Position numbers and translations under genes: made by a program. DNA of 64,000 nucleotides from Candidatus Cryptobacteroides faecavium (lineage in GTDB: Bacteria > Bacteroidota > Bacteroidia > Bacteroidales > UBA932), in NCBI GenBank assembly GCA_017694995.1, contig JADIMB010000001.1, forward strand, positions 30,012-94,011, read 5' to 3'. The notes below the pieces were generated by a model. That model searched no databases. It was not told the DNA's origin and worked only from the letters and a program-made list of their open reading frames with translations. Positions 52,447 through 64,000 of this stretch are shown piece by piece; the first letter of the stretch is position 1; the number at the start of each line of letters is the position of its first letter.

Positions 52447-52968
52447 TCAGCTGTTTTCCTGGGCGATACAGTCTATGTCGCTTCCGGAGATCTGGTATTC
52501 CACCCCGTTTACGGTGGCCGTGCCTGTGTATGTCAGGTCGAAAAGGATCACGTCAGTGAATTTCTGTGCGGTCCCGCTGATAGAGACATAGGCAGTGCCG
52601 GTTCCGTCAGTGGTCTCTATGACAAGCTGTCTTTCCGTATACGGCTCCAGGAGTGTGAGCACCATCCCGTCGGCATTCACATTCTCGAACACTACAGCAT
52701 CGCCGGCCAGGATGTTCATTGTGATAGTCATGTCGGACTTTGACTTCCCTTTTTTGACGATGTTCATCTGCCCGCTTTCGGATATCAGTTTCGCCTGGAC
52801 GGTCTCCGTCTGCTCCGCGTCTTCCGACCCCTGCGGCGACAGAGTGACTGTCCCGCTTGTCTTGAATGAGTAATTCCCTTCAAACCGGGCTGCATCTTCC
52901 TTGGTGCAGCCGCACAGCAGTGCAGCGGCTGCGCCGATTGTGAAAATAAAGGCGGTTGTCTTTTTCAT
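52447..52968 (-). CDS. Lipoprotein of unknown function in the efflux operon
   Basis: The ATG at 52968 overlaps the TetR stop codon (ATGA) and gives a 173-residue lipoprotein (lipobox ALLCGC). The rest is predicted beta-rich, for example YSFKTSGTVTLSP, SDMTITMNILAGDAVVFENVNADGMVLTLLEPY and FDLTYTGTATVNGVEYQISGSDIDC. It resembles the small lipocalin-like lipoproteins of Bacteroidales, but I do not recognise a family. Its place between the TetR and pump genes suggests an envelope role linked to efflux or to sensing its substrates. Confidence 0.7.
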   Translation of the reverse strand: MKKTTAFIFTIGAAAALLCGCTKEDAARFEGNYSFKTSGTVTLSPQGSEDAEQTETVQAKLISESGQMNIVKKGKSKSDMTITMNILAGDAVVFENVNADGMVLTLLEPYTERQLVIETTDGTGTAYVSISGTAQKFTDVILFDLTYTGTATVNGVEYQISGSDIDCIAQENS

Positions 52969-53585
52969 ATTGTTCTGTTTCTTGTTGTTCCGTTTGTGAA
53001 ATTGTTTGTAACCAGGACTTCCACAAGTGCATCGTAGGTGCTTCTCATGGCCTGCTTGTCCTCGTAGTTTTTGAACTGTATCTCCAGGCCTTTGAGGATC
53101 ACCAGCATCGTCTTGCCGAACGCGTCCGGTTTCACTGCTTCTGAAAGGATGCCCGCTTCCCGGCCTTTGTTGCATGCGTCCACGAAATATCCGTATTCCC
53201 ATCCGTCCAGTGTCTTCCTGGCTTCCTCGATGGCCTCTTTCACTTCACTCTGACCCTCGAGATAAGGCGACATGATGTAGTGCATGAAAACCTTTGCACT
53301 GAATATCACCTCCATCCTGGACTTGAGGTATGCGATGAGCTGCGAACTCGGGTCGGGATTGGACGAAATGATGTTCTCCTGCGAGGTGATCACCCCTTCC
53401 ATCTCCTTTCTCAGGACCTCCCTGAAGATGTCCAGCTTGCTCGGGAAATGGTAATAGATCGATGCCTTGGCCTTGTGTATGGCCTCGGCGATTTCTTCCA
53501 TCGATGTCTTTTCGTAACCGAACCTTTCAAACAGGGAAGATGCCGCTGAAAGAATTGCATTGCGGATTTTCTCTTTGTCTTTCAT
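52965..53585 (-). CDS. TetR-family transcriptional regulator of the efflux operon
   Basis: The ATG at 53585 gives a 206-residue protein starting MKDKEKIRNAILSAASSLFERFGYEKTSMEEIAEAIHKAKASIYYHFPSK-like TetR HTH (about 5-50). A helical ligand-binding domain follows. An in-frame start further upstream would add an atypical leader. It is the first gene of the TetR-lipoprotein-MFP-RND-TolC operon and probably represses it, being relieved by a pump substrate. Confidence 0.9.
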   Translation of the reverse strand: MKDKEKIRNAILSAASSLFERFGYEKTSMEEIAEAIHKAKASIYYHFPSKLDIFREVLRKEMEGVITSQENIISSNPDPSSQLIAYLKSRMEVIFSAKVFMHYIMSPYLEGQSEVKEAIEEARKTLDGWEYGYFVDACNKGREAGILSEAVKPDAFGKTMLVILKGLEIQFKNYEDKQAMRSTYDALVEVLVTNNFTNGTTRNRTI

Positions 53586-53792
53586 TTTAAAATTTTCGAC
53601 CAATACGGTTTTTTGGTACAAATTCCATGCCTTCCATATTGCTTCCGGGAAAGGAGACATGGGGATGTTTGCCTGGCCGAGGTTGGAAAATTTGATTATT
53701 TCCATTATATTTAGCGACAATTGGTACAAGCAGGCCGGGTACGGCTTCTGCACGTGTGTTTTTTATTTAATAATATTAAAACTTTTAACGAG
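53586..53792. promoter_or_regulatory. Divergent control region with two TTGGTACAA repeats
   Basis: TTGGTACAA occurs at 53613-53621 (within TTTTGGTACAAATT) and at 53721-53729 (within AATTGGTACAAG), between the divergent tetR and AGE-like genes. They are candidate operator half-sites. No clear TAnnTTTG promoter is seen on either strand. Confidence 0.3.
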
Positions 53793-54797
53793 ATGGAAAG
53801 GACCGATGCCTTCACGAAGGAGACCAGGAAGATGCTTGAGGAGAAGATCCTCAGGTTCCCGGTCGAGAAATTGCAGGACCCTAAAGGTGGTTTTTACGGC
53901 CGGATGACAGAAGACGGCAGGGTGGACGAGGCCGCACCTAAAGAGGTGATCTTGAACGCTAGAATTCTTTGGACCTATGCAGCAGGATACAGGGTTCTGA
54001 AAAAGAAGGAGTATCTGATGACTGCCACCAGGACAAAGGATTTTTTTGTGGAGCATTTCCTTGACCACAAATATGGCGGAGTGTACTGGACGCTGGATTC
54101 CGACGGACAGAGGCTGGATACCGGGAAGCGTTTCCGTGCGACAGGTGCGGCCATATATGCCCTGAGCGAATATGTGCTTGCTACAGGTGACGCGAGTGTG
54201 CTTTCCTATGCGAGGAATCTTTTCGAGACCACGGAGAAGGAAGGCTATGATGCGGAGAAAGGCATGTACAGGGATATGAAATCCAGAGACTGGGGTGATG
54301 CGGAGCCGCAGCTCAAGGACGAGAGGTTCAACACCCATCTTTTTATACTTGAAGGATATACAAACCTGTACAAGGTATGGAGGGACGAGACTCTCCGCGC
54401 CAGGATAATCAATCTTCTCACGATAATGGCAGACAAGGTGCTTGCCGGCCCTTGCGGGGAGGATGAGCACTCATGCAGGAATGTTGCCGAGGCATCCTGG
54501 CAGATGCTCAAGGCCGCGTTCGCAGTGCGCGACATATATGTCACCAACAAGGTGCGTCCTGTAGTGCAGGAGCTTCTGGGGAAGGTTTCCGGGGTGGACT
54601 GCGGAAGCAGGGCCTGTGTGGCCGCGGAAAGGATAGTGGCTGACTTGTGGGCATGGAAGTACCTCAATGAGACAGAGGCCGCCGACAGGGCCCTGGCATG
54701 CTGGGACACGCTCAAGTCCGCTCCGCTGGAGCACAAGTGCGGCAACTGCATTTTCCGTCTCGGACGTATGTGCACTGAGGTCGCTGACATGTTCTGA
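53793..54797 (+). CDS. AGE-family epimerase homologue, shortened and cysteine-rich
   Basis: Starting at ATG 53793 the product has 334 residues. The first ~200 match N-acylglucosamine/cellobiose 2-epimerases well: DPKGGFYGRMTEDGRVDEAAPKEVILNARILWTYAAGYRVL, HKYGGVYWTLDSDG, GAAIYALSEYVLATGD and NTHLFILEGYTNLYKVWRD. After that it departs from the family. The GHDIEASWLL-type motif with a catalytic histidine appears as CRNVAEASWQML, the C-terminal catalytic region is absent (the family is ~390-410), and eight cysteines occur between 221 and 327 with none before, including CGNC (316-319). A non-epimerase role or a new active site is possible. An M24 peptidase follows on the same strand. Confidence 0.7.
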   Translation: MERTDAFTKETRKMLEEKILRFPVEKLQDPKGGFYGRMTEDGRVDEAAPKEVILNARILWTYAAGYRVLKKKEYLMTATRTKDFFVEHFLDHKYGGVYWTLDSDGQRLDTGKRFRATGAAIYALSEYVLATGDASVLSYARNLFETTEKEGYDAEKGMYRDMKSRDWGDAEPQLKDERFNTHLFILEGYTNLYKVWRDETLRARIINLLTIMADKVLAGPCGEDEHSCRNVAEASWQMLKAAFAVRDIYVTNKVRPVVQELLGKVSGVDCGSRACVAAERIVADLWAWKYLNETEAADRALACWDTLKSAPLEHKCGNCIFRLGRMCTEVADMF

Positions 54798-54853
54798 GCC
54801 TGCAGGATAGGGCGCGTATGTCCCGTGGACTGATGAAAAACCATAGACAAGAT

Positions 54854-56299
54854 ATGTTTACAAAAGAAGTTTATCAAAGAAGAAGGGCGGAGCTGCTCAG
54901 GAGAGTGTCCGCACAGATGCCGGGAGGGAAAGCCGGAATCGCCATTTTCATAGGCAACGCCGAGGCTCCTCAGAATTACAGGGGGAACGACTACAAGTTC
55001 AGGCAGGAGAGTTCGTTCCTTTATTACTGGGGGATTGACGAGCCCGGGTTTGCCGCGCTGCTTGATCTTGACAGCGGGGAAGAGGTGCTTTATGGGGATG
55101 ACGTTGAGATAGGGGACATCATCTGGATGGGGCCGCAGCCTTCCGTCGCTTCCAAGGCGGGGCTGTGCGGTGCGGAGAAGTCCGCCCCGTCGGAAGCTTT
55201 CTGCAAGGCCGTGGCTTCTGCCCGCTCGCTCGGACGGACCGTTCACTTCCTTCCGCCATCGAGATATTACAATGTTCTCAAGACAGTCTCCCTCACCGGA
55301 TGCTCTCCGGAGGATGCCCGGACTGTGGCTACTGTAGCCGACGGGAAGGTGCATGCCTCCCTGGAGCTGGTGAATGCCGTGATTTCCATGAGGCTTATAA
55401 AGGAGGACTGCGAGATAGAGGAGATAGACAAGGCCTGTGAAATCGGCTATCTGATGCATACGGAGGCGCGTATGGGGTGCCGCCCCGGCGTGTGCGAGCA
55501 GGAGATTGTCGGCAGGATGGAAGGCGTGACCATATCCAAGGGATGGGGAGTGTCTTTCACCACCATACTTTCACAGCACGGGGAGACCCTGCACAACCAC
55601 AGGCATGACGGGATCATCACGCCGGGACGGCTGCTCCTGATAGATGCCGGGGCTGAGAGCAATACCCACTATGCCTCTGATTTCACCAGGACAATCCCGT
55701 GCGGGGGGAAATTCTCTCAGCGCCAGCGCGATGTCTATGATATAGTCGTAGCCTGCAATGACCTGGCATACGGCCTCTCCAGGCCGGGGGTCACATACCG
55801 CGACGTGCACCTTGCCGTGGCTGCGAGGATGCTCGAAGGGCTCAGGTCCCTGGACCTTGTGCGCGGTGATGTGCAGGATATGGTGGAGGAAGGCGTTGCC
55901 GGCCTCTTTATGCCGCATGGGCTGGGCCACAATATGGGCATTGATGTCCACGACATGGAGGACCTCGGGGAGGACCTTGTGGGCTATGACCCGGACCAGA
56001 GGCGCTCGCCGCAGCTCGGGCTGGGGTCGCTCCGCATGGCGCGCCGCCTCAAGCCTGGACACGTGATAACTGACGAGCCGGGCATATATTTCGTCCCTGC
56101 CCTGATAGCCAAATGGAAGGCTGAAGGCACCGGAAAGGGTTTCGTGAATTATCCTAAACTCGAGGCGGAATATCTGGACTTCGGGGGTATCAGGCTGGAG
56201 GATGACCTGCTGATTACAGCGGACGGATGCCGCAGGCTCGGGCCTCGCCGCCTTCCTATCTATGCGGACGAGGTGGAGGCGGCCATGCAGGATTTCTGA
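54854..56299 (+). CDS. Xaa-Pro aminopeptidase-like M24 metallopeptidase
   Basis: From ATG 54854 the product is 481 residues. An N-terminal creatinase-like domain (FIGNAEAPQNYRGNDYKFRQESSFLYYWGIDEPG) precedes a pita-bread catalytic domain. The metal ligands are visible: Asp in LLIDAGAES, Asp in YASDFTRTIP, His in MPHGLGHNMGIDVHD, Glu in ITDEPGIYF and Glu in GGIRLEDDLLIT. It should remove N-terminal residues preceding proline in cytoplasmic peptides. An earlier in-frame ATG (54818) would add 12 residues. Confidence 0.92.
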   Translation: MFTKEVYQRRRAELLRRVSAQMPGGKAGIAIFIGNAEAPQNYRGNDYKFRQESSFLYYWGIDEPGFAALLDLDSGEEVLYGDDVEIGDIIWMGPQPSVASKAGLCGAEKSAPSEAFCKAVASARSLGRTVHFLPPSRYYNVLKTVSLTGCSPEDARTVATVADGKVHASLELVNAVISMRLIKEDCEIEEIDKACEIGYLMHTEARMGCRPGVCEQEIVGRMEGVTISKGWGVSFTTILSQHGETLHNHRHDGIITPGRLLLIDAGAESNTHYASDFTRTIPCGGKFSQRQRDVYDIVVACNDLAYGLSRPGVTYRDVHLAVAARMLEGLRSLDLVRGDVQDMVEEGVAGLFMPHGLGHNMGIDVHDMEDLGEDLVGYDPDQRRSPQLGLGSLRMARRLKPGHVITDEPGIYFVPALIAKWKAEGTGKGFVNYPKLEAEYLDFGGIRLEDDLLITADGCRRLGPRRLPIYADEVEAAMQDF

Positions 56300-56310
56300 A
56301 AGAAAACAAT

Positions 56311-56802
56311 ATGGAGATACTCATAGCTATACTGGCAGTGCTTGCCGGGGTGATCGGGATCCTCGGCAGCGTGCTGCCCGCCCTGCCCGGCCCTCCGCTC
56401 ACGTGGGTCGGCATGCTGCTCCTTTATCTGTGGGGAGGCACCGACGGGGCGGGGGAGCATATGTCGCTGACCCTGCTCCTGGTGATGCTGGGCGTCACAG
56501 TCGCAGTGAGCATAATCGATTATGTGGTGCCGCTTTACTTCACGAAGCTCACCGGCGGGACAAAGGCCGCCGAACGCGGTGCGATGGCCGGACTTGTGTT
56601 CGGGCTTTTCGTAGTCCCTCCGGTAGGGATGATCCTCGGCTCGTTCCTGGGGGCTTTCCTCGCAGAGCTGTATTACGCCCGCAAATCCACCGGGGCGGCA
56701 CTGAAATCGGCTTTCGGCTCATTCCTCGGCTTCCTTGCAGGAACCGGCATCAAGCTCATAGCCTGCGGGGTGATGATGTATTATATCATAGTGTATATAT
56801 AA
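56311..56802 (+). CDS. DUF456 membrane protein
   Basis: The 163-residue protein has several membrane helices and the DUF456 pattern: ILAVLAGVIGILGSVLPALPGPPLTWVGMLLLYL, VSIIDYVVPLYFTKLTGGTKAAERGAMAGLVFGLFVVPPVGMILGSFLGAFLAEL, with a glycine-rich close GSFLGFLAGTGIKLI. The function is unknown. It starts 11 bases after the peptidase stop codon and is probably in the same transcript. A hairpin (GAGCGTC 56810-56816 with GACGCTC 56832-56838) follows. Confidence 0.88.
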   Translation: MEILIAILAVLAGVIGILGSVLPALPGPPLTWVGMLLLYLWGGTDGAGEHMSLTLLLVMLGVTVAVSIIDYVVPLYFTKLTGGTKAAERGAMAGLVFGLFVVPPVGMILGSFLGAFLAELYYARKSTGAALKSAFGSFLGFLAGTGIKLIACGVMMYYIIVYI

Positions 56803-59432: not shown

Positions 59433-62400
59433 ATGATTAAAACGGTTAAGTCTTCAATCGTTCTTGGACTGGTGTCGCTTGTCGCAGCCGCTTCCTTGAA
59501 CGTTTTGATGCCTTTCGAAGCCTCTGCCCAGAATCAGGCGGGGGTAGTCAGTGGCGTAGTAACAGATGCCATCGGACCGGTCGCAGGTGCGGCGGTCTTT
59601 GTAAAAGACGGGGCAAACGGTGTCACTACCGATCTTGACGGTGCATATACGCTGTCGGACCTGAATCTTAATGATGTCATAGTCGTATCCCTTCTCGGAT
59701 ACGAGACCCAGGAAGTCGTCTATACAGGACAGGCCAGGCTGGACTTTGTGCTCGCGGAAGAGTCCACTCTTCTCGAGGGTGTAGTGGTAACGGCCATGGG
59801 TATTGAACGGCAGGAAGAGTCTCTTACCTATGCTGCCGAAACTGTAGGCGGTAGCGATGTCAACGACATCAAGAGTGTGAATATGATCAACTCCCTGCAG
59901 GGTAAAGCCGCAGGTCTGGTCATCACCCCGAACTCTACGGGAGCCGGCGGATCGTCCAAGATCCTCTTCCGAGGCAGCAAGTCCATCAGCGGAAGCAACC
60001 AGCCTCTTATCGTGATTGACGGTGTGCCTGTAATGAACAGCATCACAACAGCACAGGTCGCATCAAACTATGGCGGCGAGCGAGACGGAGGTGACGTGAT
60101 GTCTACCATCAACCCTGATGACATCAAGTCGATTTCCCTTTTGAAAGGAGCATCTGCAGCCGCTCTTTACGGTGCAGTCGCAGCCAACGGAGCCATCATG
60201 ATCACCACCAAGTCCGCACAGTCCGGCAAGGTGAATGTGAATTTCTCCAGCAATACTACTGTAGAGACTCCTCTTACTCTTCCTAAGTTCCAGAACAGCT
60301 ACGGTATGTCCGACAACGGGTCATACAGCTGGGGAGACAAGCTTTCCTCTTCATCTCCTAACTATCTTAAGGAATTCTTCCGTACAGGTGTCACCACCAA
60401 CAACTCTGTCGCAGTATCAGGAGGCAGCGAGAATTTCGGTGCATATTTCTCATACGGGAACGTCTACTCTCAGGGTATCACCCCGGAGAACGATTACATG
60501 AGCCATAACCTGAGCGCGAAGGTGAATTTCACTGTCCTGAAGAAGGTGCATATCGATTTCAATGCCAAGTACACCAACCAGCACATCGAGAACCAGGCTG
60601 CATCAGGATTCCTCTACAACCCGCTTCCGGGTGCATACCTGTTCCCGAGAGGCGAGGACTGGAACCACTACAAGAACAACTTCGAGGTGTTCGATGCAGT
60701 CCGGAATGTGAATGTCCACAACTGGACAAATACAGCGATGGAACAGTTCGAAAACCCTTATTGGGTGCTCAACAGGGAAAAACCTGTAGTTGACCGCAAC
60801 CGCTATACATTCGGAGGCTCCATCAAGTACGATATTATCGATGGGCTCTACATCCAGGGCCGTCTCACTTATGAAAGAGGTGACGAGCGTTTCCAGCACA
60901 ATCTGTACGCATCCAGTGTAGCTGACCGTTACCCGATGGGAAGGATGAAGGACAACCGCTATTTCAGCAGCCAGATGTATGGCGATGTCCTCATCAGCTA
61001 CAACCATACCTGGAATGACACATACTCACTTTCAGTGACAGCAGGTTCCAGCTTCACACACACAAAGACTTCCCATGTAGATCTCTGGGGAGAGGGTACT
61101 GCATTTGAAAGTCCAGGTTCCGGAAATATATATTTCCCGAACATTTTCACTCCGAACAACTATTACAACAACTTGTCCGTAGTATCCGCATCCGACAACT
61201 GGGAGACAGAGAAGAGGCTTAATGCGGTATTCGCTACCGCTCAGTTCGGATTCAAGGACGGACTGTTCATTGATGTGACTGCTCGTAACGACTGGTCTTC
61301 ATCGCTTGCTTTCACTGACGATATTTCTTTCTTCTATCCATCGTTCGGTGCCAGCCTCCTGCTTGACAGGTTTGTGGATATGGGCGAGAATGTAGATCTC
61401 CTCAAGTTCAGAGGCAGCTACTCTATCGTGGGTAACGACGTTCCGGTCTTCATGTCCAACCTTCTCTACAGCCTTGGTTCACAAGGTGTGATTACCGCTC
61501 CTGACAAAGCTCCGTTCAGGACATTGAAGCCTGAGATGACGCATTCTGTCGAGGCCGGATTTGACGGTGCATTCTTTAACGACAGGTTCAACATTTCCGC
61601 TACCTGGTACAAGACAAACACCAAGAACCAGTTCTTCTCTGTGGCTGCTCCTTACGAGTCAGGTCTGAGAAACAGGTATGTAAATGCAGGTGACGTACAG
61701 AACCAGGGATTAGAGTTCAGCGCAAGCTGGTATGAGCCTTTCACTCCGGACTTCAGCTGGGAGACCGGAATCAACCTCTCTTACAATAACAACACCATCA
61801 AGGAACTTGTCGATGATCTTCCTAACGGTCTGACACTGTCTGATTTCGGAGGTGCGAAGATTATCCTCAAGGAAGGCGGTTCTTATGGCGACCTTTATGT
61901 CCGCCATATCATGAGGGACGAAAACGGAAAACCGCAGAAGAACGAGCAGGGGCAGCCTATACTCAGCGGTGATGATGATTTCACTTATGCGGGCAACATG
62001 ACATCTAAAGTAAACGCCAGCTGGACCAACACATTCCGCTACAAGAACTTCACTCTCTCATTCCTCATCGACGGAAGATTCGGCGGCAAGGTTCTTTCAA
62101 TGACTGAAGCCGCCCTTGACGGTTGGGGAGTATCCCAGAGGTCAGGAGATGCGCGTGATGCAGGCCAGATAGTTGTCGACGGAGTCTCTTTCGAGCCTCG
62201 GGCGTGGTATGAGACTACAGGTCTTTCAAACTACAACTCCCAGTATGCGAACGAGAATTATGTCTACAGCGCTACGAATATACGTCTCCGCGAGTTAAGC
62301 ATAGGCTATACGTTCCGCGATGTATTCGGGGCAGGCAAGAACATCACAGCTTCGCTTATAGGACGTAACCTGTTCTTCTTCTACAAGGATGCCCCTATGG

Positions 62401-62504
62401 ATCCTGATGTTTCAGCAGGTACCGGAAACGGTATACAGGGAGTCGACATGTTCGCTCTTCCTACTACACGCAGCTTCGGTCTGAATTTGAAACTTAATTT
62501 CTAA
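59433..62504 (+). CDS. SusC/RagA-type TonB-linked outer-membrane transporter
   Basis: The 1,023-residue protein has a signal peptide (SASA-type EASAQ cleavage near 33), a carboxypeptidase-regulatory-like domain (about 38-112, VVSGVVTDAIGPVAGAAVFVKDGANGVTTDLDGAYTLSDL) and a plug. The plug shows GLVITPNSTGAGGSSKILFRGSKSISGSNQPLIVIDGVPV and INPDDIKSISLLKGASAAALYGAVAANGAIMITTK. A barrel ends at LNLKLNF. It imports an oligomeric nutrient through the outer membrane together with the SusD-like lid encoded 12 bases downstream. There is no adjacent polysaccharide-degradation gene in view to name the substrate. Confidence 0.95.
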   Translation: MIKTVKSSIVLGLVSLVAAASLNVLMPFEASAQNQAGVVSGVVTDAIGPVAGAAVFVKDGANGVTTDLDGAYTLSDLNLNDVIVVSLLGYETQEVVYTGQARLDFVLAEESTLLEGVVVTAMGIERQEESLTYAAETVGGSDVNDIKSVNMINSLQGKAAGLVITPNSTGAGGSSKILFRGSKSISGSNQPLIVIDGVPVMNSITTAQVASNYGGERDGGDVMSTINPDDIKSISLLKGASAAALYGAVAANGAIMITTKSAQSGKVNVNFSSNTTVETPLTLPKFQNSYGMSDNGSYSWGDKLSSSSPNYLKEFFRTGVTTNNSVAVSGGSENFGAYFSYGNVYSQGITPENDYMSHNLSAKVNFTVLKKVHIDFNAKYTNQHIENQAASGFLYNPLPGAYLFPRGEDWNHYKNNFEVFDAVRNVNVHNWTNTAMEQFENPYWVLNREKPVVDRNRYTFGGSIKYDIIDGLYIQGRLTYERGDERFQHNLYASSVADRYPMGRMKDNRYFSSQMYGDVLISYNHTWNDTYSLSVTAGSSFTHTKTSHVDLWGEGTAFESPGSGNIYFPNIFTPNNYYNNLSVVSASDNWETEKRLNAVFATAQFGFKDGLFIDVTARNDWSSSLAFTDDISFFYPSFGASLLLDRFVDMGENVDLLKFRGSYSIVGNDVPVFMSNLLYSLGSQGVITAPDKAPFRTLKPEMTHSVEAGFDGAFFNDRFNISATWYKTNTKNQFFSVAAPYESGLRNRYVNAGDVQNQGLEFSASWYEPFTPDFSWETGINLSYNNNTIKELVDDLPNGLTLSDFGGAKIILKEGGSYGDLYVRHIMRDENGKPQKNEQGQPILSGDDDFTYAGNMTSKVNASWTNTFRYKNFTLSFLIDGRFGGKVLSMTEAALDGWGVSQRSGDARDAGQIVVDGVSFEPRAWYETTGLSNYNSQYANENYVYSATNIRLRELSIGYTFRDVFGAGKNITASLIGRNLFFFYKDAPMDPDVSAGTGNGIQGVDMFALPTTRSFGLNLKLNF

Positions 62505-62516
62505 AACCTTACAGCG

Positions 62517-64000
62517 ATGAAAAAAATCATAAAATATACTTCAATTGCGGTTCTCGGGCTCGGACTGTTCGCTTCGTGTACAGAAAAGTTCGAGGAAATG
62601 AATACAAGCAATATTCAGGTCGACCCGTCTGACATGCCTTTGGAGTCGCAGTGTGTCGAGCCGATGAACTACTGTTATCCTCCGCAGCAGAATATGTTCC
62701 AGTTCTGGACCAACTTGACTGTGGATCTCTACAGCGGTTATTTCATGACGCCGAACGGAAACTTCACCAACGGTGACATGGGAGAGAACCGCGGACACAG
62801 CGGCGGTATGTATGAAAACTACTATCTGCATATATTCAACAATACACGCCGTGTGATTGCTGCTTATGAGGAAAGAGGCCAGAAAGGTTTGGCCGGAATC
62901 ATGAAAATTGTCCAGGCTTACGGGACAATTATGACTACGGATGTTTACGGGCCGCTTGCCTACAGTTCCATTATTTCCGGAGAATACGAGTCTTATTTCC
63001 CGTTTGACAGCCAGAAGCAGATATATTTCCAGGTTATCGATGATTTGAGGACAGCGGCTACTGATATCGCTGCTATGTCAGATGCTGAGAAGACGATTCT
63101 GAAGGACAATTTTGACGATTCATGGTGTGCAGGTGATCCGGAAATGTGGATAAAGATTGCAAATACCATGAAGTTGAGAGTGGCTTTGCGTCTTTCCAAG
63201 AGGGAAGCTGAAATGAAGGAAGGGGTGACTGTTGCCGGTAAGGAGTATCCTGGAGTAGACCTGAAAGCCCTCGCTCAGGAGGCAGCAGGAAATACCTTGG
63301 CCAACAATGGCAAGGATATCATGATCAACAAGAGTCTGGAGAACGAGATGTGGCTTATGTTCAACTGGGGAGACTGCGGATTCAACGCCAACCTTGTCAC
63401 TCTCATGTCAGGAATGAAAGACCCTCGCCAGCCTCTTTATATGACGAAGAATAACGGGGATATCACTAATGACGCTGGAGTGGTTACAATGCCGAAAGAA
63501 ACGGATTACGTAGGTATCCGTTTTGCCAGCGGGCTCCCTGGAAAACCTAATGCCTGGGGAAACTTCTCATATTGGCTTGATCCATCCAATTCGAAAGGTA
63601 TCTATGCAGCTCCGCTTCCTATATTCAAGCAGGCAGAATCTTATTTCCTCCTTGCCGAAGCAAAACTCCGTTGGGATATCGGTTCTGAATCTGTGCAGAG
63701 CCTGTACGAAAAAGGAATCAGATGCTCTATGGACAACGAGCTTGCCTACAAAGGCAAATATGCAGATCCTGTAATCACTGCATATCCTGCAGGTGCAGTT
63801 GATGCTTATATCAACAATGATACTGATACCCAATTGGATTTTGTTGACCCTGTAGATCCAGAACTCAATACTAAAGCCGTCAATAAACTCTGCGTAAAAT
63901 GGGATGACAATGCTTCAAACGAGGACAAGCTCGCAAGGATCATCACCCAGAAGTACTTCGCCCTCTTCCCTCTTTCTACCGAGGCATGGGCCGAATACAG
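62517..64000 (+). CDS. SusD/RagB-like surface lipoprotein (3' end beyond the window)
   Basis: The frame opens at ATG 62517 and is still open at 64000 (494 codons). The signal has lipobox LGLFASC. IMKIVQAYGTIMTTDVYGPLAYSSI and DPEMWIKIANTMKLRVALRLSK are helical segments typical of the SusD-like group with TPR-like helices, and SYFLLAEAKLRWDIGSESVQSLYEKGIRCSM is the usual late motif. It should form the lid of the SusC-like transporter and bind the nutrient at the cell surface. Confidence 0.93.
   Translation, partial: MKKIIKYTSIAVLGLGLFASCTEKFEEMNTSNIQVDPSDMPLESQCVEPMNYCYPPQQNMFQFWTNLTVDLYSGYFMTPNGNFTNGDMGENRGHSGGMYENYYLHIFNNTRRVIAAYEERGQKGLAGIMKIVQAYGTIMTTDVYGPLAYSSIISGEYESYFPFDSQKQIYFQVIDDLRTAATDIAAMSDAEKTILKDNFDDSWCAGDPEMWIKIANTMKLRVALRLSKREAEMKEGVTVAGKEYPGVDLKALAQEAAGNTLANNGKDIMINKSLENEMWLMFNWGDCGFNANLVTLMSGMKDPRQPLYMTKNNGDITNDAGVVTMPKETDYVGIRFASGLPGKPNAWGNFSYWLDPSNSKGIYAAPLPIFKQAESYFLLAEAKLRWDIGSESVQSLYEKGIRCSMDNELAYKGKYADPVITAYPAGAVDAYINNDTDTQLDFVDPVDPELNTKAVNKLCVKWDDNASNEDKLARIITQKYFALFPLSTEAWAEY

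Follow-up and report, generated by a model that had tools for sequence, protein, structure and literature searches.

We find that the gene at positions 53793-54797 of the window (the whole stretch of 64,000 nucleotides that was analysed) encodes a protein of 334 residues descended from a cellobiose 2-epimerase (CE). The reading that we favour, to which we give a probability of about 0.6, is that this protein is a complete CE-derived barrel maintained as a pseudoenzyme, whose pocket has been remodelled and which has a role with, or is co-expressed with, a downstream gene pair coding for an Xaa-Pro aminopeptidase and a DUF456 membrane protein.

Family assignment and fold

The gene lies in a genome of 2.33 Mb assembled in 139 contigs, and its basic features are the following.

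53793-54797, plus strand: pseudo-cellobiose-2-epimerase gene, an intact open reading frame for 334 aa, with a MERTDAF start common to all orthologues

The preliminary description of this DNA had called the product a homologue of the AGE epimerases, an assignment that was borne out by profile and structure-database searches. The protein scores 52.8 bits against the Pfam family PF07221 (GlcNAc_2-epim; cut-off 23.4), with a match confined to residues 33-218 that spans the first 178 profile positions, and its top PDB matches in phmmer are CEs, aligned over residues ~3-228 (best E 6e-45). That local searches end near residue 220 is due to divergence of the second half: the first half keeps 32/44 nearly invariant CE columns, the second half 27 of 62, its others being changed (19) or deleted (16). 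The score against the NCBIfam equivalog NF041848 (EpiA), 132.8 bits, is below the cut-off of 800, which is uninformative by itself because an intact relative (L081) likewise falls below it (320.7). In the phylogenetic tree the protein is placed among full-length CEs of Cryptobacteroides, Bacteroides and Rikenellaceae (support 95/85 and 99/98), and the stem branch of the clade of eight to which it belongs is long, with 1.1-1.2 changes per column. Taken as sequence comparisons, these results firmly place the ancestry of the protein with the CEs of the AGE superfamily.

With the CEs (EC 5.1.3.11), represented here by the Rhodothermus marinus enzyme RmCE (PDB 3wkf/9l8i), the protein shares ancestry and the (alpha/alpha)6 barrel, and R66, E262, E326 and C395 of RmCE are conserved together with much of the first half. 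It differs in length, as CEs have ~390-410 aa, in the replacement of three histidines and in the deletion of four loops. N-acylglucosamine 2-epimerase (AGE or renin-binding protein, PF07221) belongs to the same superfamily and has the same fold; the likeness is distant, with 25% identity over part of the chain between the 334-aa protein and the AGE of its own genome.

It had been claimed that the catalytic C-terminus was lost and the end of the protein missing. This had to be abandoned, as the final residues CIFRLGRMCTEVADMF align to the C-terminal helix of the CEs, CPYHNSRMCLEVLKIFG, and the AlphaFold model, computed from a 62-sequence alignment (pLDDT 88.3, pTM 0.91), contains each of the 12 main barrel helices, so that alignment and model together rule out a missing C-terminus. 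The residues that are absent with respect to the full-length L071 protein form four internal segments, of 7, 13, 17 and 22 residues, which correspond to active-site loops. The pLDDT falls below 50 solely at residues 222-228, the site of one excised loop. A Foldseek search of the PDB with the model ranked RmCE first (E 4e-19, TM 0.87 on the query). An assembly error or truncation is ruled out by the occurrence of the same short form in eight genomes.

The former active site and the cysteines

The centre of the CEs is a triple histidine, whose acid/base catalysts are His259 and His390 in RmCE, equivalent to His247 and His377 in CsCE (PMC5726027); Tyr124, His200 and Asn196 of RmCE contact the C2 position of the substrate (PMC6333288). 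The codons at the positions of four RmCE active-site residues are listed here.

54342-54344, plus strand: Phe184, equivalent to RmCE His200; the orthologues have Asn or Ser
54480-54482, plus strand: Asn230, where RmCE has the catalytic His259; 8/8 orthologues share the Asn, 71/71 full-length CEs have His
54615-54617, plus strand: Cys275, at the position of the active-site Trp322 of RmCE; Cys in 8/8 orthologues
54756-54758, plus strand: Arg322, where RmCE has the catalytic His390; 8/8 orthologues share the Arg, 71/71 full-length CEs have His

In the same alignment, Y124 of RmCE is replaced by R115 and the loop bearing W385 is deleted. Every one of the 71 full-length relatives has H200, H259, H390, Y124 and W322 of RmCE, and none of the eight orthologues has any of them. 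The preliminary description had reported an altered catalytic histidine region, and the alteration proved stronger than claimed, with all three histidines replaced in every orthologue. The alignment thereby documents a replaced triple-histidine centre and deleted loops, and CE activity has very likely been lost.

R57, R115, N230, E233, C275, E279 and R322, at the centre of the barrel, are invariant in 8/8 orthologues, and 26 changes at CE-conserved sites are fixed in the clade, including new invariant arginines at 113, 115, 229 and 322, which suggest a pocket for an anionic ligand. We infer that a remodelled Arg-rich pocket in a CE-derived pseudoenzyme is the best reading of these data. The protein would no longer epimerise cellobiose-type sugars, and the pocket would have been rebuilt around the invariant Arg57, Arg115, Arg229, Arg322, Glu233, Glu279, Asn230 and Cys275 for another, probably anionic, ligand or for a protein partner, as far as residue conservation can tell.

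The same invariant residues are also what could be expected of a neofunctionalised enzyme that catalyses another reaction by means of the retained Arg57, Glu233 and Glu279 and the new Cys275, Arg115 and Arg322. Strong purifying selection and the retention of R66, E262 and E326 of RmCE are consistent with this proposal, and AGE-type epimerases have been argued to employ residues besides the two histidines (PMC6333288). However, the protein lacks the loops by which the sugar site is shaped, one of the excisions coincides with the single low-confidence stretch of the model, and searches of the PDB and NCBIfam found no enzyme of the AGE superfamily with a matching set of residues, so we regard a new catalytic activity as unlikely, if worth keeping in mind.

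The cysteines of the protein had been proposed to form a cluster suggestive of metal or redox chemistry. The relevant features are these.

54453-54773, plus strand: segment with all eight cysteines (residues 221-327)
54738-54749, plus strand: CGNC motif (residues 316-319), the second Cys being the ordinary CE cysteine of KCPYHN

All eight cysteines (221, 228, 270, 275, 303, 316, 319 and 327) do lie in the last 114 residues (p ~2e-4 under uniform placement), and the CGNC motif is present, both as described. The C-terminal bias is partly inherited, because in the 71 full-length relatives 211/366 cysteines are already found in the last 114 residues, and because three of the eight are cysteines that CEs ordinarily have, occurring at C303 in 43/71, at C319 in 70/71 and at C327 in 71/71 of these relatives. 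Conservation among the orthologues holds for Cys 221, 228, 275, 303, 316 and 327 (8/8) and fails for Cys270 (6/8) and Cys319 (4/8). The motif therefore reads CGNG in half of the orthologues and was rejected as the key conserved motif. The part of the cluster that stands consists of four clade-specific cysteines, 221, 228, 275 and 316, which are new with respect to full-length CEs, invariant in 8/8, and fall in segments lining the former active site of the CEs.

These four could come together at the mouth of the former active site, where they would coordinate a metal or be joined in a regulatory disulphide. Such a centre is favoured by their fixation in the clade and by the location of C228, C275 and C316 beside the residues equivalent to H259, W322 and H390; the incomplete conservation of CGNC and C270, the ordinary CE origin of C303, C319 and C327 and the low confidence of the 222-228 loop speak against it, and on balance a metal or redox centre appears improbable, more so than a new enzymatic reaction.

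Selection, partners and genomic neighbourhood

Orthologues were searched in 150 relatives and then in 400 genomes of Cryptobacteroides. The search yielded one tight clade of eight, including the window gene (genomes G000, G053, G445, G075, G438, G029, G068 and G378), with members of 334, 333 or 316 aa that are 75-81% identical to the window protein. The 316-aa forms have an additional deletion of ~19 residues toward the N-terminus; in L063 and L064 (G029 and G068) this deletion removes the otherwise conserved GGFYG segment, and the constraint on the genes is strong nonetheless. The next relatives, full-length CEs of 387-404 aa, share ~37-47% identity where the sequences align. A scan covering 84,980 species brought up the clade, among the matches listed, only in Cryptobacteroides or in Bacteroidales records matching its members. 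The preliminary description had raised the possibility of homologues of the same length with epimerase activity; homologues of that length were indeed found, but the catalytic residues are absent there too, and most cysteines are retained in them.

The median dN/dS (Nei-Gojobori) is 0.10 over 27 pairs, with a range of 0.03-0.14, single values being rough because dS is mostly near or above 1; the changed C-terminal third gives 0.13. No internal stops or frameshifts occur in the eight orthologues. By these measures the 334-aa protein is under purifying selection. A decaying, functionless pseudogene could account for the lost active site, the deleted loops and the long stem branch (1.1-1.2 changes per column), but a dN/dS of this order, with dS around 1 and reading frames intact in eight genomes, indicates a maintained pseudoenzyme and leaves decay with scarcely any credence. 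As the gene has been kept intact by selection in eight related species, the protein probably has some other job.

One such job would be to regulate an active CE paralogue as its partner in a hetero-oligomer. In favour of this idea, genome G068 contains a full-length CE (L071) alongside the pseudoenzyme. In the genome search, in which some genomes are incomplete, no full-length CE was found in the other 7/8 pseudoenzyme genomes, which contain a canonical AGE or nothing instead: 6 of the 7 carry a separate AGE-type gene, which in G053 is only a short fragment and in the genome of the window is split over two contigs. A partnership with a CE is accordingly very improbable. A sugar-binding regulator is possible, though 7/8 genomes are without a partner CE.

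The neighbours of the gene are the following.

52965-53753, minus strand: TetR-family regulator in divergent orientation, with an RND efflux operon alongside, adjoining the gene in most orthologous loci
54818-56299, plus strand: Xaa-Pro aminopeptidase (AMP_N + Peptidase_M24), likely start at 54854 by orthologue comparison
56308-56802, plus strand: DUF456 membrane protein, third gene of a probable transcription unit

In 8/8 orthologous loci the pseudoenzyme gene lies directly 5' of the same-strand Xaa-Pro aminopeptidase gene, which is followed by DUF456, so that by gene order the linkage to this pair is fixed in the clade. Nearly all genomes of the genus (108/121) have the aminopeptidase, and elsewhere in Cryptobacteroides it usually has DUF456 alongside without the pseudoenzyme gene. 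Since the pair is common by itself, the pseudoenzyme gene was most likely inserted 5' of an older pair, and the linkage may reflect positional inheritance only. On the other side, the TetR regulator and the RND efflux operon are found in the window and in L062-L065; this link is weaker because L059 and L060 have a SusC/SusD-type locus there.

Two further features of the window were observed. A small lipoprotein-like gene at 52447-53000 (minus strand) has the TetR gene on one side and the RND membrane-fusion gene on the other; among the orthologous loci it recurs only in L065, which argues for a recent gain or loss. At 59433-63998, after a flippase-like gene, there is a SusC/SusD-like pair, 86-96% identical in L062 and L064 and more conserved than the adjoining genes.

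In the scenario that we favour, a CE gave rise to a complete cytoplasmic (alpha/alpha)6-barrel protein, from which the triple-histidine centre and four active-site loops have been lost; the resulting pseudoenzyme has been retained in a small Cryptobacteroides clade, where it may work with, or be co-expressed with, the downstream aminopeptidase/DUF456 pair.

Parallel degenerate CE forms in Cryptobacteroides

A second clade of degenerate CEs, of 357-366 aa, was found in the same genus (L068-L070, L096, L097, L101, L103, L104, L106-L108, L112, L115, L117, L120, L122 and L130, with L133, of 365 aa, nearby). Like the window clade, it has lost H200, H259 and loops, is under purifying selection (dN/dS ~0.06) and lies near the orthologous Xaa-Pro aminopeptidase gene, here in opposite orientation and with a DUF1080-like lipoprotein gene between the two. 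In contrast to the window clade, which has neither, it keeps H390 and W322. Its place on the tree is elsewhere among the CEs, and a single origin of the two clades was rejected in favour of separate ones (AU p = 0.0067, subject to the common caveat of long branches).

Additional degenerate forms were seen singly. L067 is one such form, of 358 aa. In a single genome, L074:9310-10212 encodes a strongly degenerate CE of 300 aa beside a mannose-1-phosphate-guanylyltransferase-like gene; L073 (G016) has a full-length CE at the corresponding position, a pattern of in-place degeneration.

We tentatively put forward the broader idea that at least two independent conversions of a CE into a non-epimerase took place in this genus of gut Bacteroidales, the one described here producing an Arg/Cys pocket whose new role, in binding, metal or redox chemistry or catalysis, would be tied to the Xaa-Pro aminopeptidase/DUF456 pair; as a whole, this statement is possible rather than probable. 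In the open-access literature we found no description of pseudoenzymes of the AGE/cellobiose-epimerase superfamily, which thus appear undescribed there. Pfam would label the gene an epimerase despite the absence of the catalytic residues, which makes it an annotation trap. That catalysis was repeatedly lost within one genus while the fold was kept offers a natural experiment on the reuse of the sugar-epimerase barrel.
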